64,000 nt of DNA from Kordiimonas sp. SCSIO 12610. Lineage in GTDB: Bacteria; Pseudomonadota; Alphaproteobacteria; Sphingomonadales; Kordiimonadaceae. Positions 4,557 to 60,866 of this stretch are shown in pieces; position 1 is the first letter of the stretch, and the number at the start of each line of letters is the position of its first letter. Both the position numbers and the translations under genes were made by a program. The notes below the pieces were generated by a model. The model worked only from the letters and a program-made list of their open reading frames with translations. It searched no databases and was not told the origin of the DNA. The DNA is taken from NCBI RefSeq assembly GCF_024398015.1, contig NZ_CP073747.1:62001-126000 (forward strand), written 5' to 3'.

Positions 4557-5657
4557 ATGGATATAACACTGATATTATCACTTCTTATTCTACTCGTGGC
4601 GCCCTTGTTGGCGCGGCTCGCATCCCGTGCGCCCAGACTAAAAGTAGGGTTTGATGGCTTTGTTATGATCATAGTGCTTGGTTTGATTACACTTACGCTC
4701 CTGCCTGAAGCGCTGGCACACGGTGGTCTATTAGCGCTCTTTATCGCCGTATCCGGCTTTATTATGCCATGGATCGCAGAAAAGCTGTTCCACAAAACAG
4801 AGGAAATGACCCATAGAATTTTATTAGTCATTGCTTCCTTTGCGTTGGTTATTCATGCAGCGAGCGACGGGGCTATACTGGCATTTGCAAGCGACGATCT
4901 GAATGGATACTTTCTTGCCGCTGGTATTTTGTTGCACCGGTTCGGCGTAGCGATATCCGTCTGGTGGTTACTGAGGCCCGTTCTCAGCTCGGCAGGTGGA
5001 TATGTTGTCCTTATCAGTCTTGGGGTCATGACTTTAATCGGGTATTTTCTGGCTGCCTTTGCTGGTGATTGGTACAACATTCCTTTGGCAGGGTACTGGC
5101 AAGCCTTTGCTGCAGGGTCACTGCTTCATGTGGTTATGCACCCGATTGGTGAGGACCAACATACAAAAGATGTAACAACCGAAACCCAAACCAACCTGCC
5201 ACAGCAATTAGGGACTGCTATCGGTGTTTTATTCATCATCGCATTAATCATTGCACACTATTTACACCATACGCCGGTCACGGCACCACAAGGACATGAT
5301 CATACGTCAGGCAGACATGCGATTGATATGATGATGGCCAGCGGTCTGTTGATTGGCCCAATCCTAATTCTTATGCTTTTAACATCTGCTGCTATTGCTC
5401 GCAGCAAAGGTACGTCATGGCGTAACGCTATCGAGGGCGCTGAGCGCGCAGCACCTTGGTCGTTACTGAGTTGGCTGATTGTATCATGCTTCACAGCAAT
5501 ATGGCCTGACATCCTGCCGATGACAGAAAAGGGACATGTCATTTTCTTCTCTTGGCTGGCTATTGTGACGTTGATTACAATCAATATGGGTGCGCGTGCC
5601 TTCTTTAGGCCTTTGCTACCTAAATGGCTTGTTCATCAGCACAGTCATTCCCATTAA
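4557..5657 (+). CDS. ZIP-like metal transporter with histidine-rich loop and C-terminal membrane extension
   Basis: A 366-residue polytopic protein. About eight hydrophobic segments in the first 236 residues resemble the ZIP core: TM4 carries HAASDGAIL, close to the ZIP metal-site pattern HNxxDG, the next segment has LLHRFG where ZIPs have HE, and TM7 reads AFAAGSLLHVVMHPIGED, like the ZIP GTFLYVA...LPE end. A histidine-rich stretch (HHTPVTAPQGHDH) follows, then about three more hydrophobic segments and a terminal HQHSHSH. ZIP proteins import divalent metals such as zinc; the histidines support a metal role. The extra C-terminal segments are not part of a normal ZIP. Overall similarity is distant, so substrate and even transport direction are uncertain. 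Confidence 0.6.
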   Translation: MDITLILSLLILLVAPLLARLASRAPRLKVGFDGFVMIIVLGLITLTLLPEALAHGGLLALFIAVSGFIMPWIAEKLFHKTEEMTHRILLVIASFALVIHAASDGAILAFASDDLNGYFLAAGILLHRFGVAISVWWLLRPVLSSAGGYVVLISLGVMTLIGYFLAAFAGDWYNIPLAGYWQAFAAGSLLHVVMHPIGEDQHTKDVTTETQTNLPQQLGTAIGVLFIIALIIAHYLHHTPVTAPQGHDHTSGRHAIDMMMASGLLIGPILILMLLTSAAIARSKGTSWRNAIEGAERAAPWSLLSWLIVSCFTAIWPDILPMTEKGHVIFFSWLAIVTLITINMGARAFFRPLLPKWLVHQHSHSH

Positions 5658-5729
5658 TTAATACCTAAACGCTTGCATAAAAGCTGCCAAACCTATAGGG
5701 CTTGCTGCCTTGATAAAGGAAACAAAGCC

Positions 5730-6485
5730 ATGCGTTTCAAAAACAAATCCATTCTGATAACAGGCGGTACTTCTGGCCTCGGAGCAGCAGCAGCATATGC
5801 GTTTGCTAGCGAAGGGGCCCATATCAGCTTTTGTGGATTGGATGATAAAGCAGGCCAAGATGTTGAAGCAAATATTCGCCAGCAAGGCGGCATATCATAC
5901 TATTTTCCCTGTGACGTAAGAAACGAAGATGACATTGCACTTTTTGTAGCTAAAACCATCGAACAAACAGGCAAGATTGATATTGCCTTCAACAACGCTG
6001 GCATAAGCCACAGCGCAGCACGTTTCGCAGATCAGGATACGGATGTTGTCGAAGATGTATGGCGCACCAATGTCATGGGTGTTTGGTATTCCATGCGTCA
6101 TCAAATTAAACATATGTTGGAAAATGGCGGCGGTGCTATCATTAATACAGCATCAATTCTGTCCAAGTCTGGCGCTGAATGGATGGCCGCTTATGGGATG
6201 ACAAAACACGCAATTATTGGCCTGACTAAAAGTGCTGCCCTTGATTATGCAGATAAAAATATCCGTATCAATGCAGTATCACCCGGCCCAATGTTAACAC
6301 CCATGTTTAAAAGAGCGCTTGATGATATTGGTGGCGATATGGATAAATTTGCAGGTGGTTTTCCAAAAAATGGGCCGGCAGACCCTGCCGAAGTTGCAAA
6401 AACAATTTTATATCTCGCAAGCGAAGAAGCATCCTATACAAACGGGGCAAATATAATCGTTGATGGCGGCGCTAGCACAGGTTAA
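5730..6485 (+). CDS. Short-chain dehydrogenase/reductase (SDR)
   Basis: A 251-residue classical SDR. The Rossmann cofactor motif TGGTSGLG is at residues 11-18, NNAG at 88-91, and the catalytic triad is Ser142, Tyr155 and Lys159 (in YGMTK). The C-terminus has SPGPMLTPMF and the VDGGAS ending usual for the family. It should oxidise or reduce a hydroxyl/keto group with NAD(P)(H); the acidic residue after strand 2 (GLDD) hints at NAD preference, but the substrate cannot be read. The ATG chosen has AAAGGA in front at a good distance; earlier in-frame ATG at 5673 lacks this. Confidence 0.92.
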   Translation: MRFKNKSILITGGTSGLGAAAAYAFASEGAHISFCGLDDKAGQDVEANIRQQGGISYYFPCDVRNEDDIALFVAKTIEQTGKIDIAFNNAGISHSAARFADQDTDVVEDVWRTNVMGVWYSMRHQIKHMLENGGGAIINTASILSKSGAEWMAAYGMTKHAIIGLTKSAALDYADKNIRINAVSPGPMLTPMFKRALDDIGGDMDKFAGGFPKNGPADPAEVAKTILYLASEEASYTNGANIIVDGGASTG

Positions 6486-6592
6486 AGCGCAGAAAAGCAT
6501 TAAGCCTTGAAAATAGCACATTCAGATATCAGATTGATATGATATAGAAAACACAGCTTGAAACCCTATTGGCAGCATAGGCGATATACCCA

Positions 6593-7666
6593 ATGAATAT
6601 GATCAGTGCATGGTTCAATAAGACATTTGCCGACACACAGGTTGTGCTGCTTATTCTGGTGGTCGCACTGGCCGTTATCGGGTTAACGCTGTTTGGAAGT
6701 ATGCTGGCACCTGCAATTGCAGCGATTGTTATCGCCTTCCTGCTTGATGGCCCAATCGAATGGTTAAAGAGTAAAGGCGTCAGGTCTAGCCTCGCTTTCA
6801 TAAGTGTATTTTTAGGTTTCATACTTTTGAGTGTAATTACACTTTTAGCTGTTGTTCCTCCGCTTGTTAATCAGATTACGCAATTTATAAATGAAGCGCC
6901 AAATATGGTTGTGCGGCTTCAAAACGAATTGCTTGCGCTTCAACAAAGGTTCCCTGATCTTATTTCTGAAACTCAGGTACAGGAATGGTTAAATGGTTTA
7001 GGGAACGAGATCGCGAACCTTGGCCCACGGTTACTTGAATATTCCCTTAGTGGTGTTACAGGAGCCGTTACCTTTATAATCTATACAGTTTTAGTGCCAA
7101 TGATGGTCTTCTTCTTCTTGAAAGATAAAGATGCTCTGTTGAATTGGGCAGCTAATTTTTTACCTTCTGATAAACCGCTCCTTGAACAGGTTTGGCGGGA
7201 AACGTTGCAACGGGCTGGTGATTACGCCAGAGGCAAGGTCTACGAAATTGTTATTGTTGGTCTATCGGCCTTCATCGCATATCAAATAATCGATCTTCCC
7301 TATGCAACGCTTTTGGCTGTTGCAACGGGACTGAGTGTAATCATTCCGTATATCGGTGCTGCCGCCGTAACAATTCCTGTTGCACTTGTTAGCTACGCTC
7401 AATGGGGAATTGGAAGCGAGATGGCAATCGCCGTCGGTGTTTATCTTGTTCTTCAAGCCTTGGACGGTAACGTACTTGTTCCGCTTCTCTTTTCTGAAGT
7501 AGTGAATTTGCATCCAAATGCAATTATTATCGCAGTGCTTGTTTTTGGCGGCCTTTGGGGATTTTGGGGTGTGTTTTTCGCAATACCTCTGGCAACTGTT
7601 GCCAATGCAATTATCCGTGCATGGCAACAACGACGACTGGCTCCGGATACATCTATAACATCATGA
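6593..7666 (+). CDS. AI-2E family transporter (PerM/TqsA-like permease)
   Basis: A 357-residue membrane protein with the AI-2E family layout: two N-terminal hydrophobic segments, a hydrophobic hairpin (SLAFISVFLGFILLSVITLLAVVPP), an amphipathic central region (about residues 95-160), then several C-terminal membrane segments containing SVIIPYIGAA and the signature LDGNVLVPLLFSEVVNLHP and GGLWGFWGVFFAIPLA. Members include proposed autoinducer-2 exporters and Na+/H+ antiporters, so the substrate is open. It stands alone between the SDR and a small hypothetical gene, all on the same strand but with gaps large enough for separate promoters. Confidence 0.9.
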   Translation: MNMISAWFNKTFADTQVVLLILVVALAVIGLTLFGSMLAPAIAAIVIAFLLDGPIEWLKSKGVRSSLAFISVFLGFILLSVITLLAVVPPLVNQITQFINEAPNMVVRLQNELLALQQRFPDLISETQVQEWLNGLGNEIANLGPRLLEYSLSGVTGAVTFIIYTVLVPMMVFFFLKDKDALLNWAANFLPSDKPLLEQVWRETLQRAGDYARGKVYEIVIVGLSAFIAYQIIDLPYATLLAVATGLSVIIPYIGAAAVTIPVALVSYAQWGIGSEMAIAVGVYLVLQALDGNVLVPLLFSEVVNLHPNAIIIAVLVFGGLWGFWGVFFAIPLATVANAIIRAWQQRRLAPDTSITS

Positions 7667-7742
7667 TTTCAAAAAGTTTTTGATCAATAGATCTTTTTTG
7701 CATAGACTATGATACAGTGCCAACATCACTGGGGCGAGAGCA

Positions 7743-8078
7743 ATGATACAAGAATCGCGTAGCATAATTTTTACTGAAGACGAGTTAATCCAAGCTTTGG
7801 TACCACTATTGGATGCAAAAGAAATCTCTTCTTCCGAACCCCCTATAAAGGTTGAAAGCTCTTTCGATAAAGAAGGAGAGGTTAGTGTTGCTTATTTCCC
7901 GGCTGATGGTTCAGAGGCCGTTAGCTTCAATAGCCGCGAAGTCGGAGCGGCTGTATTAAATCATTGCATCGAATTGGGCATTCCCTTACCACGCGGCTCG
8001 TATAAAGAATTGACATTACGGGGGGACGATATTGCTTTGATCGTTCGACTGGAGACAGGGTTAGGGTCTGAAGAATAG
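7743..8078 (+). CDS. Hypothetical protein, 111 residues
   Basis: I do not recognise this protein. It is acidic, has no signal peptide or membrane segment, and reads as a small alpha/beta domain: an N-terminal helix (TEDELIQALVPLL), a strand pair around IKVESSFDKEGEVSVAYF, a helix near REVGAAVLNHCIEL and a final strand DIALIVRLE. A good ribosome-binding sequence (GGGGCGAGAG) sits just before the ATG, which supports translation. It is convergent with cysK, 40 bases away. No functional context is visible. Confidence 0.7.
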   Translation: MIQESRSIIFTEDELIQALVPLLDAKEISSSEPPIKVESSFDKEGEVSVAYFPADGSEAVSFNSREVGAAVLNHCIELGIPLPRGSYKELTLRGDDIALIVRLETGLGSEE

Positions 8079-8118
8079 AGCCGAATTATATCCGGCCCCA
8101 TCCAGTGTTGAATTTTCT

Positions 8119-9036
8119 TTACTCAGTCGGTAAAAAATCTGGAACGGACAAGTATCGCTCACCTGTATCGTAACAGAACCCCAGAACCCTGCTACCCTTC
8201 TCGACATCAGCAAGCTTGTTTTCAATAGCTGCTAATGTTGCGCCCGAGGATAATCCGATCAACATCCCTTCTTCGCGCGCTGCGCGGCGTGCCATTTCTT
8301 TCGCGTGCTCTGGTTCAACCTGCAAAACACCATCAAGAATATCTGTATTCATAATATCTGGAACAAAGCCTGCTCCAATACCCTGAATAGGGTGCGGTCC
8401 CGGGTCACCGCCCGACAAAACAGGTGATAACGCTGGTTCTACAGCATAGACCTGTAATTCAGGCATTGCTTCTTTCATAACCTCAGCACAACCGGTTATA
8501 TGACCACCTGTTCCAACGCCTGTAATCATATAATCTAAGCCATCTGGGAAATCTGCAATGATCTCAGGGCCTGTTGTTTTTCTATGAACTTCCAAATTGG
8601 CAGGGTTTGAAAACTGTGCTGGCATCCATGCACCAGGCGTTTGCTCGATAAGTTCGCTCGCTTTTGCAAGGGCACCCTTCATCCCCAACTCTTTTGGAGT
8701 AAGGACAAACTCTGCACCATAAGCGAGCATCAATCGACGGCGCTCAATGGACATAGATTCTGGCATTACGAGTATCAAACGGTATCCTTTAACCGCTGCA
8801 ACCATAGCAAGGCCAATACCAGTGTTTCCAGAGGTTGGTTCGATAATAACACCGCCCTCTTTCAATTTCCCATCCTGCTCAGCCGTTTCAATCATCGCAA
8901 GCGCAATACGATCCTTAATAGAACCTCCAGGATTGGTTCGCTCTTGCTTTAACCAAACTTCATGCTCAGGAAAAATACGCCCAAGGCGAATATGTGGTGT
9001 ATTGCCAATGGTTTCCAGAATAGATTGTGCCTTCAC
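8119..9036 (-). CDS. cysK: Cysteine synthase A (O-acetylserine sulfhydrylase)
   Basis: A 305-residue PLP enzyme that makes L-cysteine from O-acetyl-L-serine and sulfide. The PLP lysine is Lys41 in NPGGSIKDR, the substrate-binding TSGNTG loop is at residues 68-73, and the phosphate-binding glycine loop [10 protein letters not shown] and a C-terminal [10 protein letters not shown] are present. The length fits CysK/OASS. It lies 63 bases downstream of the serine acetyltransferase gene on the same strand, so both steps of cysteine synthesis appear to be one operon. The protein's C-terminus lacks an obvious extension that would point to CysM or cystathionine beta-synthase. Confidence 0.95.
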
Positions 9037-9099
9037 GAGTGCGCTCCCCTGTTTAAATATCTATTTCTAATATAAATGAAATTAGCAGCCAGTAACAAC

Positions 9100-9960
9100 T
9101 TAACTATTTTTTGGCTGCATCGGAATCACTTCTTCGGTATCGCAGGCTTTAAACATAACACGAGACCACGCAGGTACGGATTTCGTAAGCCAGACATTAC
9201 CACCAATAACTGAATTTTGCCCAACGATAGTATTCCCGCCAAGAATGGTCGCGCTCGCATAAATGACAACATTATCCTCAATTGTTGGATGCCGTTTCGT
9301 CGATTTTGCTGCCCGGTCCACCCGCAAGGCCCCTAATGTAACCCCTTGGTAAATCTTTACATTATTACCGATAACAGCCGTACCCCCAATGACAACACCC
9401 GTACCGTGGTCAATGAAGAATGATTTTCCAATTGTTGCGCCTGGATGAATATCAATGCCGGTTCGTTGGTGCGCAAGTTCCGTTAGAACGCGCGGCAACA
9501 TCGGAATCTCTTGTTTCAAGAGCGCGTTAGCGACACGGTATACCACAATTGCGTAAAAGCCCGGATAACTAACAATTACCTCTTCTAAAGACTCGGCAGC
9601 GGGGTCGCCCTCGATCAATGCCTCCGCATCCAAATGACAGCTCTCCGCAATGGCGGGTAACTGGGTAACAAAATCCCGAGCAAGTGCATCTGTTTCAGCT
9701 TCACTAAGGTCGCTCATCGCTTTTTGAATTAAACCCGATAAAATCTGCACCAAGTCGACGACCTGATCATCAAGATTGACATCGGCATGGTCATCAATTG
9801 AAAACTGCGGGAACAAAACCGACATAGTTTTGCGCATGAAATCGCTAACTTTACTAAAACGTAACCCGGTAGGTGATTGATAGCGCGCCCGATGATCACG
9901 CAATCGATCTATTGCATCTGTAAGCTCGTCACCTGACTTTTGTTTTACTGCCATTCGCAT
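9100..9960 (-). CDS. epsC: Serine O-acetyltransferase (EpsC type)
   Basis: A 286-residue enzyme of the longer EpsC branch of serine acetyltransferases; it makes O-acetylserine from serine and acetyl-CoA for the neighbouring cysteine synthase. The N-terminal two thirds are helical; from about residue 180 comes the left-handed beta-helix with hexapeptide repeats, including HQRTGIDIHPGATIG, FIDHGTGVVIG and VKIYQGVTLGAL. Catalytic histidines are expected in the DIHPGA and DHGTG motifs, both intact. The C-terminus ends EEVIPMQPKNS and lacks the terminal Ile that anchors the CysE-CysK complex in enterobacteria. First gene of the two-gene minus-strand operon. Confidence 0.94.
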   Translation of the reverse strand: MRMAVKQKSGDELTDAIDRLRDHRARYQSPTGLRFSKVSDFMRKTMSVLFPQFSIDDHADVNLDDQVVDLVQILSGLIQKAMSDLSEAETDALARDFVTQLPAIAESCHLDAEALIEGDPAAESLEEVIVSYPGFYAIVVYRVANALLKQEIPMLPRVLTELAHQRTGIDIHPGATIGKSFFIDHGTGVVIGGTAVIGNNVKIYQGVTLGALRVDRAAKSTKRHPTIEDNVVIYASATILGGNTIVGQNSVIGGNVWLTKSVPAWSRVMFKACDTEEVIPMQPKNS

Positions 9961-11532: not shown

Positions 11533-11874
11533 GTGCCAAGCAGACAATTAGTAGCAAAAGAACTCGCTGAAATATTCAAGCTTATGTCTCACCCTGACCG
11601 GATTAGACTTATTGAAGAGCTAAAGACCGGTGAAAAGGATGTGAATACGCTTGCCGAAATACTTGGCCTGGCTGGCCCACGTGTTTCACAGCATCTAAGC
11701 CTACTAAAACTAAATCGTATTGTTGAAGAGCGCCGTGATGGTCGACATCACTTTTATCAACTTATTCAACCAGATATCGCAGCCTGGGTCGTGGACGGCC
11801 TTAATTTTGTAGAAGGCCGTATGGGTGGCATCAGTCAATCGAGCATCAATGATGCCCGCCGCCTTTGGTCATAA
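11533..11874 (+). CDS. ArsR/SmtB-family transcriptional regulator
   Basis: A 113-residue winged-helix regulator. The core FKLMSHPDRIRLIEELKTGEKDVNTLAEILGLAGPRVSQHLSLLKLN contains the recognition helix, and RRDGRHHFYQL forms the wing. No cysteine metal-binding motif (ELCVC-type) is seen, so it is probably not a classic arsenic or zinc sensor; redox, small-molecule or other sensing is open. It starts at GTG behind the strong site GGGAGAGGA. It is followed by carbonic anhydrase (33 bases) and a SulP transporter, which suggests it controls a bicarbonate or anion supply operon. Confidence 0.92.
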   Translation: MPSRQLVAKELAEIFKLMSHPDRIRLIEELKTGEKDVNTLAEILGLAGPRVSQHLSLLKLNRIVEERRDGRHHFYQLIQPDIAAWVVDGLNFVEGRMGGISQSSINDARRLWS

Positions 11875-11907
11875 CGTGTTCTGTGTAGAACAGTAGAGGA
11901 AAACACT

Positions 11908-12582
11908 ATGCCTAAATTTGCCGCCGGAGTCGTAAGGTTCCAAAACGAAGTATACCCGCAAAAGCAAGAGCTTTTTGAAAAACTAAGCCAAGGGCAAGAA
12001 CCCGAAGCCTTGTTTATCACTTGCTCAGACTCGCGTATTGAAACTGCGATGATCACCCAAACAGACCCTGGAGAATTATTTATCTGCCGGAACGCTGGTA
12101 ATATTGTTCCACCGCACACAAGTCACACTGGCGGCATGACAGCATCAATAGAGTTTGCAGTTGCTGCCCTTAAGGTTCCACATATCGTTGTTTGTGGCCA
12201 CACAGAATGCGGCGCGATGAAGGGTGCCATGAACACTGACGGCCTTGACGCCCTTCCGCATATCAAGGAGTGGCTTGGTTATTCAAAAGCGGCGGTAGAC
12301 ATTGTAAAAGAGATTGGCAAGGACAAAGCTGAACAAGATCAGATGTCCATGCTTTTGGAACAGAATGTTATCCTTCAGCTTCAGCACCTTCGCACTCACC
12401 CGACAGTTGCTACAGCACTTGCAATGGGTACGCTTGAGCTACATGGCTGGGTATATGACATCAAAACTGGTGGTGTCAGTGCTTATGACGAAGATAGCAA
12501 CGAATTTGTCGCGGTTAATGACCGTTATGCGGCTGAATTCGCCAAATTGGCAGGCGCAGACTCTTGTAGTCATAGCGCATAA
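11908..12582 (+). CDS. can: Beta-class carbonic anhydrase
   Basis: A 224-residue beta-carbonic anhydrase that interconverts CO2 and bicarbonate in the cytosol. The expected zinc ligands are Cys39 and Asp41 (in CSDSR), His98 and Cys101 (in CGHTECGAMKG); the Arg of CSDSR is present, consistent with an active dyad. The C-terminus has ALAMGTLELHGWVYDIKTGGVSAYD, the usual family end. It sits between an ArsR-type regulator and a SulP transporter on the same strand with short gaps. Linked carbonic anhydrase and SulP genes are known in many bacteria and point to bicarbonate uptake or CO2 retention. Confidence 0.95.
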   Translation: MPKFAAGVVRFQNEVYPQKQELFEKLSQGQEPEALFITCSDSRIETAMITQTDPGELFICRNAGNIVPPHTSHTGGMTASIEFAVAALKVPHIVVCGHTECGAMKGAMNTDGLDALPHIKEWLGYSKAAVDIVKEIGKDKAEQDQMSMLLEQNVILQLQHLRTHPTVATALAMGTLELHGWVYDIKTGGVSAYDEDSNEFVAVNDRYAAEFAKLAGADSCSHSA

Positions 12583-55249: not shown

Positions 55250-56191
55250 TTATGACTTACTGAATTGGCCCTGAGGTTTATAATGCACACAATATTTTGG
55301 TAAAATTGCCTCGATTGATGACGGCGTAATACCAAGTGCTTTAAATCCTTTTGACCCTTTGGCGGTAATATTATCGCTTTGCAATAACTTAATCTGATCA
55401 AGTGTTAATGGCGGGTTAGGTAACAAGCCCATAAAAAATGCCTGAAATTTCGCAATACCAAGCGGTAGGGGCACAATAGGACGATGTACATCAATGTGAT
55501 CCATCATAAAGTTCAGCATTTCACGCATGGTCATCACTTGAGGGCCGCCAAGCTCAAAGGTCATACCCTCAACGCTTTCGCCGCCATCAAGGCATTTAAC
55601 AACAGCATCCGCAACATCACCGACGAACACCGGCCGAAACTTTGTTTCCAAGCCCGGCAGTGGTAGAACTGGCAATAGCTTGGCCAATCCCGCGAAACGG
55701 TTAAAGAAACCATCTTCGTGGCCAATAACCACACTAGGTCGCAATATAGAAGCATTTGGAAACGCGTCCAGTACGGCTTGTTCACCGCGCGCCTTTGTAC
55801 GCGCATATTGTGCAGCAGACTCCTCATCAGCACCAATAGCAGACATATGAACCAGATTATTAACACCCGCTGCTGCTGCAATGCGAGCAACAGTTGCGGC
55901 ACCATCTGCCTGGAGCGCTTCAAATGTTTGTCCGCCACTATTGTGCAAAATACCGACAAGGTTAACAACGGCGTCCGCGCCTTGTATGGCACGCTCAACC
56001 GACGCTTCATTTTTAAGATTGGCCGCGATGATTTGAACCTGTCCAACATCACCTAATGGCTTTAGGAACAATGCTTCGTTCGGGCGGCGAACCGCAACGC
56101 GAACCAAATGGCCTTGAGACGCGAGGCGTTGAACAACATACCTGCCAATAAATCCTGATCCACCGAAAACTGTGATCAATCGTTTTGTCAT
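55250..56191 (-). CDS. NDUFA9-like atypical SDR (complex I-associated family)
   Basis: A 313-residue extended/atypical SDR. The NAD(P)-binding motif VFGGSGFIGRYVVQRLASQG is at the N-terminus, followed by VRVAVRRPNEALFLKPLGDVGQVQ. DAVVNLVGILHNSGGQTFEALQADGA and VHMSAIGADEESAAQYARTKARGE match alphaproteobacterial homologues of the complex I subunit NDUFA9. Bacterial members are found as single genes; a role in complex I assembly or quinone chemistry is inferred from the mitochondrial protein. It converges with uppP. Confidence 0.9.
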   Translation of the reverse strand: MTKRLITVFGGSGFIGRYVVQRLASQGHLVRVAVRRPNEALFLKPLGDVGQVQIIAANLKNEASVERAIQGADAVVNLVGILHNSGGQTFEALQADGAATVARIAAAAGVNNLVHMSAIGADEESAAQYARTKARGEQAVLDAFPNASILRPSVVIGHEDGFFNRFAGLAKLLPVLPLPGLETKFRPVFVGDVADAVVKCLDGGESVEGMTFELGGPQVMTMREMLNFMMDHIDVHRPIVPLPLGIAKFQAFFMGLLPNPPLTLDQIKLLQSDNITAKGSKGFKALGITPSSIEAILPKYCVHYKPQGQFSKS

Positions 56192-56686: not shown

Positions 56687-57217
56687 ATGAGCAAATATAC
56701 AGTTACACCCGTCGATGAGGCGATCCATTTCGGTAAAGACGAAATTATTGTTTCAAAGACAGACCTTAAGGGTCGCTTATTGTACGCAAACGATGTTTTT
56801 TGCCGCGTTGCAGAAATGACAACTAGCGAAGTTATTGGCAAACCCCATAGCATCATTCGTCACCCCGATATGCCGCGAACTATTTTTAAGCTTCTGTGGG
56901 AAACCATTCAAAATGGTGAAGAAATATTTGCGTTTGTAAAGAACATGTCCAAGACAGGAAAATACTATTGGGTTATCGCCCATGTAACGCCAAGTTTTGA
57001 CCAGCAAGGCCAGATCATCGGATATCATTCCAATCGACGTCGTCCCTCAGACCTTGGTATCGCTCAGATCTCTGGGATTTATGACCAACTTCTTTCTGAA
57101 GAACTAAAGCATACCAACAGCAAGCAGGGCCTGATTGCAGGGGAAAACTTATTGCATTCAATGTTGAAGGAAAAGTCCCAGACTTACTCTCAATTCGTCT
57201 GGTCGATAGGAGAATAA
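56687..57217 (+). CDS. Aer-type PAS-domain protein (stand-alone)
   Basis: A 176-residue soluble protein consisting of one PAS domain (about residues 18-120) and a helical tail. The PAS resembles that of the aerotaxis receptor Aer: [50 protein letters not shown], then [17 protein letters not shown] and [11 protein letters not shown]. In Aer this domain binds FAD and senses redox state; here there is no transducer on the same chain, but a soluble MCP starts two bases after the stop. The two proteins probably form a split receptor. Strong ribosome site AGGGGGG. Confidence 0.85.
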
Positions 57218-57219
57218 CA

Positions 57220-58452
57220 ATGTTGGATATTTTCAGAACTACAACAACAAACCCCTCTGCACCTACGGTACAGAGCGATTATGATGAAATGAAGGATCGT
57301 CTTGATCTCTATGAAAGAGCTTTTGAAGAGATCAAAAATGTAGCAAGTAATGTCTCCAAGGGCGACTTCAGTGCCCGTATTGTAAACTGGGACGAATATG
57401 ACCAACTGTCTGAAACCCTTGCCGCCTTAAATCAATCATATGACCTTGCTGATGCTTTTATTCGTGAGGCAAGCGCATCTCTTCAGGCGGCGCTTAGAAA
57501 AGAATATCACCGAGTTTTTCTTGAGCAGGGGATTTTAGGCGATCTTGGTCGAGGGGCCAGAATTATTAATGACGCTTCAGCGGCGATGAAAGAAGCTGAA
57601 GAAAATCATATTAAGCTCGTAAATGAATTAGCGGAAAGCTTTGAAAAAGAAGTATTAGCAGCAGTTGATTCGGTTGCTGAGCTTGCCAACCGTACAAAAG
57701 AGAATGCTTCAAAGCTGCAGCAAAACTCGGAAGACAATCAAGCGCAAGCAAACTCCGTAGCCGCAGCGGCAGAGCAGGCATCCGTCAATGTACAAACCGT
57801 AGCAGCAGCCTCGGAAGAATTATCTGCATCCGTGGAAGAGATTGCAAAACAAGTTAACAGGTCTTCACAGCGGTCCTCTGAGGCATCAGAATCTGCAAGC
57901 AACACTAATGATACCATTGGGGAACTCGCTGAAGCTTCCAAAACAATTGGAGATGTGGTCGGACTTATTAATGATATTGCTGATCAAACCAATTTACTTG
58001 CTCTTAATGCAACAATCGAAGCAGCAAGGGCTGGTGATGCGGGAAAAGGGTTTGCCGTTGTAGCCAGCGAAGTAAAATCCCTAGCTCAGCAGACATCTAC
58101 AGCAACAGGCGATATTGGTGTCCAAATCAAAGATATCCAGGATAAAACCGGTCTATCGGTTAACGCCATTCTGGATATTGCAAAAGTGATTGATGAATTG
58201 AATGAAATCGCTAGCTCTATTGCTGCTGCAACAGAAGAGCAGTCAAGCGCCACAATTGAGATCAGCCGCAATATTCAGGAAGCCTCGCAAGGAACAGACG
58301 AGGTTTCAACCAGCATACAACAAGTGAGTCAAACCGTAGCAGACACCCTTGAGATGGCTTCCGAGCTTAAATCATCTGCACTTGAAATGCAGGACCAGAT
58401 GGCGGCAGTGAAAAAACAATCGCTCAAATTCGTGAATTCCATTCGTGCCTGA
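57220..58452 (+). CDS. Soluble methyl-accepting chemotaxis protein
   Basis: A 410-residue MCP without any membrane segment. Residues of about 20-130 form a HAMP-like helical region ([19 protein letters not shown] ... [22 protein letters not shown]). The rest is the long antiparallel coiled coil with the CheA/CheW-binding tip [41 protein letters not shown]. No CheR/CheB-docking pentapeptide is seen at the C-terminus. It lies two bases after the lone PAS protein and overlaps the histidine kinase gene by eight, so input from the PAS protein is likely. Confidence 0.92.
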
Positions 58453-60022
58453 TAAAGATAGTAAAATACAGCAGGCCCTGAGCTTTGCAGCGCGAGAAGG
58501 ATGGTCCAGAAAGCCTGAGTTGTTTCTGGAAAAGGCAACCCAATTCCTTTGCACCCTTTTGGGCGTAAAATATGCTTTTGTCGCACTAAAAATCAAAGGA
58601 ACATCCACCGCAAAGACCATAGCTATAGCCGCTGATGGGGAAATTATTGATAATTTTGACTATGAATTAACGGGTGCTCCTTGTGAAAACGCTGTTTCAT
58701 TTGGTTACTGTGAATGCCCATCGGGGGTGACGCAAGAATTCCCGAGAGACACGTTGCTTCAAGAGATGGGTATAGAGAGTTATTTGGGATTTGCTCTGGA
58801 GGGACGGTCTGGTGAAGCTCGCTCCATTTTTGCCATAATGGATGATAAGCCACTCCAAGATGCTGTTGTAGCACGAAATATCCTGAAGATCCTATCACAT
58901 AGGGTTGCAGCAATTATTGTGCACCTTGAAAATGATCAGCTAATCAGCAACAAAATACAAGAGCTCGAAAGCTTTAGAAGAGCTATGGATGCGCAAGCCA
59001 TCGTGTCTATTGCCGATAAAGCAGGAAATATCATTTATGTGAATGATATATTTTGTGAGATCAGTGGATATAGACGTGATGAACTAATCGGCCAAAATCA
59101 CCGTATTCTAAAATCAGGTCAGCATACCCCAGAGTTCTATCAAGATATATGGAAAACCATCTCGGCAGGTAAAATTTGGCAAGGTGTTATCCAAAACAAA
59201 ACAAAACAGAACAAACCTTATTGGGTTAAATCGACCATTGTACCTGAACTGAATGAAAACGGCATACCTGTAAGATATGTATCGATTCGAACTGATATAA
59301 CAGCCGAATATGAAAGACTGGATAAAAGCACAGCCGCAAACAACGCAAAACAGCGTTTTTTAACATCAATTAGCCATGAATTTAGGACCCCATTAAACGC
59401 TGCATACGGGTATTTACAAGTTGTTCAACACAATTCCGCACTTCCACCCACGGCCCAGGAACAACTGACAGAAGCTTTGAAAGCAATTGAGACCCTAACC
59501 GATTTAACAGATAGTGTAGTCTACTTTGCAAGCGGATCTCATCTAAAATTGGATGTTCGGGGTCAGATTAATATCTGCGATATTTTCAAATCTTGCAGAG
59601 ATAAATATGGCACACAACTTAAGGCGCGCGGATTATTACTGAAGCTAAACTGTGGACCTGATCTTACTATAAGTCATCATAAAAATCCTATTAGCGAAAT
59701 TTTGGAGCGTTATCTCTCTAATGCAATCAAATATTGTGAACATGGCGGCGTAATTGAGTTGAAAGCCGAATACATAGACAAACACAAGCTTCGCCTCTCC
59801 GTTAAGAACGATGGTAAGGGCCTTGTTGAAAATGATAACAATCTTTTCGAAGCTTTCGAGAAGGCAGACCAAATGGCGGGCAGTCAATCTGGTTTAGGTT
59901 TAGGCCTGTATATTGTTGCGCAGACGGCTCAGGTTATAGATGCTAAAGTTGGCTATGAAAATAACCCAGGGCCTGGCGCTAAATTCTGGGTTGATATCCA
60001 AGAGAGTGGGGGCTCAGCTTGA
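58445..60022 (+). CDS. GAF-PAS sensor histidine kinase
   Basis: A 525-residue cytosolic kinase. An N-terminal GAF-like domain (about 15-165) contains [16 protein letters not shown], with clustered cysteines, and [12 protein letters not shown]; a PAS domain (about 180-285) reads [35 protein letters not shown] and ends in a PAC-like [15 protein letters not shown]. The phospho-acceptor is His311 in [11 protein letters not shown]; the ATPase has N box [19 protein letters not shown] and GLGLGLYIV. Translation begins at GTG overlapping the MCP stop. The receiver next to it starts inside its own stop region and is the likely partner. Confidence 0.92.
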
Positions 60023-60402
60023 AAATACTGTACGTAGAAGACATAGAAATCAATTTCAAAGTCATGCAGGCCATGACAAGTGCTCTAGGTCTGCAAACAT
60101 TAGATCATGCTGAAAATGGGCATAGTGCCCTGAATATGTGCCAAGACATTGAATATGATTTGATATTTATGGATATAAATCTGCCGGATATCTCCGGCCT
60201 TAAAGTCACTGAACACATTAAATGCAGCACATTGAACAAAAACACCCCTATTATAGCGGTCAGCGCAGATGTTACGGCAACCACCCGTGAAGCAGCAATT
60301 GAAGTAGGGTGCGATGATTATCTTACAAAACCTGTAAATATGACAATTTTAAAAGATACACTTGATAAGATAATTGACCCTCAATTCGCTACCCAACCGT
60401 AA
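60019..60402 (+). CDS. Single-domain response regulator (CheY-like receiver)
   Basis: A 127-residue receiver without output domain. Asp52 in LIFMDINLPD is the phosphorylation site, the acidic pair is Glu7-Asp8 in YVEDIE, and KPV with the conserved lysine follows DDYLT. Translation starts at TTG, overlapping the kinase gene by four bases, which indicates tight coupling to it. Such lone receivers either act on the motor like CheY or pass phosphate to an HPt protein; this one has neither in its operon. It closes the PAS-MCP-kinase-receiver set. Confidence 0.93.
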   Translation: MKILYVEDIEINFKVMQAMTSALGLQTLDHAENGHSALNMCQDIEYDLIFMDINLPDISGLKVTEHIKCSTLNKNTPIIAVSADVTATTREAAIEVGCDDYLTKPVNMTILKDTLDKIIDPQFATQP

Positions 60403-60467: not shown

Positions 60468-60866
60468 TTATGTGTTCTCCAATTTTTGGCGTATTTTGAT
60501 TAATAGGAATAACGAGAGGATGCAGACCACTATCTCATATCCAAGTAACGAATAAATTGTCTCTTGCGGCGGGCCGGCCTGTATTAAACTTGCGATACGG
60601 CCAAGGGCAAATCCCCCCATAACAAGCGACAATAGCGCCAGCATATCCAAACGTCGGTGCGCTTTTACACCGCCCCAGCCCCACAAGGCGGCCAAGACCA
60701 ATGAAACACCCCCATATGAAGCCCGTAGCATATTGTCCATACTGGGGTCCGATGCCGTTAAACCGTAGTTACCCAGCAATAGATCTGGATCATATAGATA
60801 TGCCAGGCCAATCAAACCCATAACGACCGAATTAATGATTAAAACAACTGAAGCAAAACGGGTCAT
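60468..60866 (-). CDS. DUF4345-like integral membrane protein
   Basis: A 132-residue protein with four hydrophobic segments, beginning VVLIINSVVMGLIGLAYLYDPDLLLGNYGL and containing MLRASYGGVSLVLAALWGWGGV and a terminal YEIVVCILSLFLLI. The pattern fits the DUF4345 family of small membrane proteins, whose function is unknown. It is divergent from an HxlR regulator 102 bases away, which may control it. Confidence 0.78.
   Translation of the reverse strand: MTRFASVVLIINSVVMGLIGLAYLYDPDLLLGNYGLTASDPSMDNMLRASYGGVSLVLAALWGWGGVKAHRRLDMLALLSLVMGGFALGRIASLIQAGPPQETIYSLLGYEIVVCILSLFLLIKIRQKLENT

Follow-up and report, generated by a model that had tools for sequence, protein, structure and literature searches.

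A CetB/CetA-like receptor pair with an adjoining histidine kinase and receiver in Kordiimonas sp. SCSIO 12610: a likely redox operon with two parallel outputs

The window analysed here is a stretch of 64,000 nucleotides from Kordiimonas sp. SCSIO 12610, in which positions 56687-60402 carry four open reading frames on the plus strand, with intergenic gaps of +2, -8, and -4 bases. The first (56687-57217, ATG start, 176 amino acids) codes for a CetB-like lone PAS protein (PF08447, 3.6e-12), the second (57220-58452, ATG start, 410 amino acids) for a CetA-like chemoreceptor (MCP; PF00015, 8.7e-37), the third (58445-60022, GTG start, 525 amino acids) for a histidine kinase (PAS 6.6e-16, HisKA 4.5e-11, HATPase_c 2.5e-15), and the fourth (60019-60402, TTG start, 127 amino acids) for a stand-alone receiver (Response_reg 2e-23). 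The gene order and the gaps given in the initial annotation of this locus were confirmed by the reading frames and the Pfam domains, and the GTG start of the kinase and the TTG start of the receiver find support in homologues with nearly the same starting residue. These two starts had been taken as a sign of fixed stoichiometry; start codons are no gauge of stoichiometry, and the most that the tight overlaps suggest is coupled translation. Because the neighbouring genes on both sides (55250-56191 and 60468-60866) lie on the opposite strand, the four genes form a self-contained unit, which would presumably be read from a common transcript. A scan for sigma-70 promoters was uninformative (12 promoter-like sites versus 10.8 expected), terminator-like sites numbered 7 versus 3.8 expected, and the scan found none of the latter on the plus strand 3' of the receiver gene up to position 60600. 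No membrane helix was predicted in any of the four proteins by hydropathy over 19 residues with a threshold of 1.6, the latter being our own choice.

The lone PAS protein consists of an Aer-type FAD PAS domain at residues ~17-118 and a partly conserved C-terminal tail. Its best match in the PDB is the PAS domain of E. coli Aer (8dik, 2.1e-27), and an MCP output is likewise common to both systems; Aer, however, is one membrane-anchored chain, whereas here the two parts are separate proteins without predicted membrane helices. This split had been presented as a departure from typical Aer, but it is not unusual and corresponds to the known CetA/CetB kind of receptor. The study of Elliott and co-workers from 2009 is said, judging from its title and from the papers citing it, to have defined this bipartite family. 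CetA/CetB of Campylobacter jejuni was the first case of a bipartite receptor (PMC2628428, PMC3558505), and pairs of this kind were shown to interact (PMC2628428). In a review of 2026, bipartite receptors are set apart as a separate class (PMC13401364), and a similar split was proposed for Leptospira, where a photoactive yellow protein on its own is encoded next to a chemoreceptor lacking a sensor (PMC9664959). In Magnetospirillum gryphiswaldense, CetB2 is reported to be a lone PAS protein which contains FAD and is encoded beside the membrane receptor CetA2, with which it interacts; together the two favour an oxygen-avoiding response (Herz et al. 2025, PMC12442639). Like CetB/CetA of C. jejuni and CetBA2 of M. 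gryphiswaldense, the present locus combines a small PAS protein possessing an FAD pocket with a sensorless chemoreceptor directly beside it, the genes being adjacent (overlapping in M. gryphiswaldense, with a gap of +2 here). It differs from them by the kinase and receiver behind the pair and by an MCP without predicted membrane helix, the CetA proteins of these two examples being membrane proteins.

When compared with the eight FAD-pocket residues of CetB2, the lone PAS protein has seven identical ones at the same numbers (H54, R58, F67, W71, N86, V100, and R117), and S55 replaces N55; the spacings of H54, N86, and R117 are identical to those of the corresponding triad in MmoS. In 140 paired CetB-like proteins, the present one counted, H54, R58, F67, W71, N86, and R117 were found without exception and V100 in 135, and position 55 is occupied by serine in 72 and by asparagine in 65. 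To judge from these residues, the protein probably binds FAD.

The survey of this gene pairing covered 98 relatives as well as 387 genomes from the class, and 140 regions were scored together with the window. They were chosen from the top of the search listings (60 regions were taken for the class, fewer than the lone PAS matches listed there), a lone PAS protein had to reach at least 110 bits, and an MCP was counted when it lay on the same strand with a signalling domain starting at most 1.3 kb downstream. Where PAS genes stand in tandem, both were counted with the same MCP; the loci L198-L201 and L262, taken for their kinase hits, contributed no lone PAS protein to the total of 148. With the window counted, an MCP lies downstream for 140 of the 148 lone PAS proteins; seven have none, and one is truncated by the end of its stretch. 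This argues that PAS protein and MCP constitute one system, as proposed in the initial annotation, and the two genes almost certainly encode an energy-taxis receptor in two parts, like the published CetB/CetA. Among plasmid records (40 of 1011 and 25 of 44 listed), the two best PAS matches, in Methylovirgula sp. HY1 and Azospirillum thermophilum, have PAS and MCP genes annotated beneath them. In a genome of the same genus (G001), no close lone PAS protein was found (best E value 6.2e-8). Two CetB-like PAS genes occur in tandem ahead of a single MCP gene at L182 (G073), L185 (G077), L161 (G067), and L173 (G041), which is reminiscent of CetB and CetC of C. jejuni. At L123 (G077; 7921-8337 and 11737-12102), an extra gene of 121-138 amino acids lies between PAS gene and MCP gene; its product resembles the MCP N-terminus alone, that is, a stand-alone HAMP-like module.

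The MCP itself is composed of a tandem-HAMP-like N-terminus and the MCP signalling domain and has no sensor domain of its own. A profile of the N-terminus made from 30 members matched 9trk (9e-10) and Aer2 (3vol, 2.2e-4) over ~100 residues, and we take the matched parts of both structures to be tandem HAMP domains. The Pfam HAMP model reached only 0.048 with this MCP, below the cut-off, and among the 30 members HAMP was matched weakly in 3 and HAMP_2 weakly in 2; a model of the MCP by AlphaFold without alignment (pLDDT 58.8) was not used as evidence. With a peak hydropathy of 0.88 over 19 residues, the MCP stays under the threshold and is not predicted to be membrane-anchored. Unanchored receptors are the usual form in the order to which the genome belongs, 81 of 82 MCP partners having no predicted membrane helix at the threshold of 1.6; the sole exception has a value of 1.61, which drops to 0.65 when its start is trimmed. 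In the wider class a membrane helix is predicted in 31 of 58 MCP partners and in none of the other 27, and since anchoring varies among the pairs, it is not treated here as a defining trait of CetB/CetA. FrzCD is likewise a soluble MCP with a tandem-HAMP-like region; its N-terminus, however, binds DNA, and no partner PAS protein is mentioned for it in the accessible portion of the source (PMC12077210).

The histidine kinase comprises a putative GAF-like domain (residues ~25-165), a PAS domain (~175-292), a HisKA domain with H311, and a HATPase_c domain. Of the GAF-PAS arrangement assigned to it initially, the PAS domain was recovered by Pfam; the Pfam GAF model matched neither this kinase nor its homologue from L188, and the GAF-like domain is predicted because the aligned N-terminus of the L127 homologue matches PF01590 at residues 27-142 (3.7e-7). 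An AlphaFold prediction of this region without alignment was unusable (pLDDT 45.2). The PAS domain has its best PDB match in 3ewk (2.4e-43), followed among PAS proteins by Aer and by NifL (2gj3, 6.5e-17), the latter acting in nitrogen fixation. 3EWK represents MmoS, an FAD redox sensor with a role in methane oxidation, and H53, N85, and R115 of the flavin pocket of Aer correspond to H132, N164, and R195 of MmoS (PMC9668731). H219, N251, and R282 of the kinase keep the MmoS spacings of 32 and 31, and by its sequence the domain is of the FAD type found in MmoS, Aer, and NifL; unlike in MmoS and NifL, it is situated within a GAF-like-PAS-HisKA kinase behind a chemoreceptor. This H-N-R triad is complete in all nine MCP-linked kinases compared versus 13 of 37 unlinked relatives, numbers which describe related sequences and do not amount to a test. 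Residues of the H, N, G1, and G2 boxes (H311, N426, G457, G459, G483, G485, and G487) are present, but the aspartate of the G1 box is replaced by Asn455, alone among the 46 kinases compared, so that ATP use may be weak. The kinase could even be dead, although E. coli CusS, presumably an active kinase, likewise has an asparagine at the aligned place.

In the stand-alone receiver, D8, D52, S82, and K104 are kept. It lacks an output domain and is similar to hybrid-kinase receivers, scoring 93 bits with BarA and 88 bits with ArcB versus 56 bits with CheY, and for these reasons it most likely passes its phosphate to an HPt protein. Five Hpt matches were found in the genome; one of them belongs to a CheA-type frame, and another falls short of the cut-off. 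Two of the five, among them the one below the cut-off, sit in small frames of their own, separated by ~1 kb, at G000:C1:2194266-2195597 and are candidate phosphorelay partners. The HPt gene within the window, which had been suggested as phosphotransfer partner with coordinates 1047-1397, is real, lies on the minus strand, and extends to 1424 (1047-1424, TTG start, PF01627 4.2e-7); its choice was arbitrary, nothing speaking for it beyond its being one of several Hpt genes. As to the receptor, the genome has 15 MCP matches, one CheW, and a single CheA-type frame (G000:C1:2591035-2593656, L321-L323; 1056 codons, matching Hpt once and CheW twice), and as this frame is the only one of its type, the MCP most likely uses it. 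No sign of a link between MCP and HisKA kinase was seen in the analysis, and the suggestion that the kinase takes the place of CheA as target of the MCP is not supported.

Taken as a whole, the locus is best read, in our view with good probability, as an energy-taxis operon with two flavin redox sensors and parallel outputs, leading from the CetB-CetA pair to CheA and from the kinase to the receiver. The lone PAS protein would bind FAD, the redox state of which would reflect that of the respiratory chain, and would dock on the HAMP-like region of the soluble MCP, which, by analogy with the experiments on CetB/CetA elsewhere, would control CheA and thereby the flagella. In parallel, the co-translated kinase would sense redox through its own FAD-type PAS domain and a further cue through the GAF-like domain and would phosphorylate the adjoining receiver, which most probably hands the phosphate to an HPt protein. 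One kind of signal would thereby act both on movement and, by way of a phosphorelay, on gene expression or a second messenger, and two parallel redox outputs from one operon appear likely.

The linkage of the kinase to the pair is rare. Of the 140 cases, 7 have a kinase gene immediately after the MCP (one each in the window, G005, and G316 and two each in G008 and G077), and 3 of the 140 have a receiver gene as well (the window and both loci of G008); the other 133 lack a kinase at this place, although a divergent kinase could have escaped detection. The initial annotation held that the four genes would not be one system if their homologues stood apart in most genomes. By this measure PAS protein and MCP belong together, and the kinase does recur elsewhere, but a linkage of 7 in 140 does not make the four genes a general unit; a search with the single kinase protein in named genomes yielded 16 distant loci and no carrier of the set. 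Three further kinase-linked loci lie beyond the seven: two contigs of G073, which begin inside the MCP gene and are outside the 140, and one in G493, which belongs to the order of G316 and was found later in a search of 25 genomes.

It is possible, if somewhat unlikely, that an ordinary two-component pair of kinase and receiver landed behind CetB/CetA and shares its promoter but not its signal. Besides the rarity of the linkage, the trees of kinase and CetB are compatible with such an event: the linked kinases belong to a broad family and stand on several separate branches of the kinase tree (4 changes, all forced, versus a shuffled mean of 8.4, 0 of 500 as low), and the seven kinase-linked rows of the CetB tree are not clearly clustered (6 changes versus 6.9 on average after shuffling, with 50 of 500 shuffles as low). 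The CetA side points the other way. A quick tree with 142 CetA-like proteins placed eight of nine kinase-linked ones in one branch of 10 (SH-aLRT 85), a clustering to which near-copy pairs from G073 and G077 contribute, and linkage requires 4 changes, compared with 8.8 on average after shuffling (0 of 500 as low). The branch persisted in a careful tree of 40 rows, though with weak to modest support (81/56; 4 changes, 1 of 500), and this weakness speaks for a chance landing. G003 and G075 fall into this branch, yet their MCPs have no kinase behind, and a more distant CetA (L188) is kinase-linked as well. Also against a chance landing are the distance from the MCP to the kinase start, which lies between -8 and +52 bases in all ten linked loci, the flavin triad present in every linked kinase compared, and the spread of the linkage over the families f1, f8, and f40; in all three loci having both, kinase and receiver overlap by 4 bases. 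Since the linked kinases are scattered in their own tree, they were not simply inherited together with CetA, and we read the sequences to mean that one CetA branch tends to carry such kinases, which may have been replaced or recruited more than once.

The receiver might instead work on chemotaxis, as a CheY-like motor ligand or a phosphate sink fed by CheA and the kinase. A chemoreceptor and a stand-alone receiver do stand within one set here, and a CetB paralogue beside a CheY paralogue is reported for M. gryphiswaldense (PMC12442639), but the much better scores with BarA than with CheY and the lack of the receiver in 4 of the 7 kinase-linked cases make this role unlikely. A direct action of the CetB-like protein or of the CetA bundle on the kinase, with one flavin sensor serving two transmitters, would fit MCP and kinase genes that touch or overlap at several loci and a kinase association found mostly on one CetA branch, but is quite improbable, as the kinase has an FAD-type PAS domain of its own and needs no borrowed sensor.

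Returning to the operon with two parallel outputs, a bolder version, in which a soluble CetA branch and a dedicated, swappable non-CheA flavin kinase share one complex and the redox signal is split at the receptor, is quite doubtful; if true, swimming would be governed by the CheA branch, and gene expression or a second messenger by the HisKA phosphorelay. The locus extends bipartite energy-taxis receptors to soluble, kinase-linked forms, offers a small system for direct tests of a tie between redox taxis and phosphorelay, and indicates that a PAS gene beside an MCP gene is the unit to look for in the annotation of such genomes. The PAS-MCP pair has already been published; in the accessible open-access literature searched, no CetA/CetB pair with a linked HisKA kinase was found, and the kinase-linked form may be absent from print and the soluble kinase-linked form perhaps new. 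A kinase of the same family is also seen at L261 (G236; 5448-9237), where it stands divergently beside a CetB/CetA pair.
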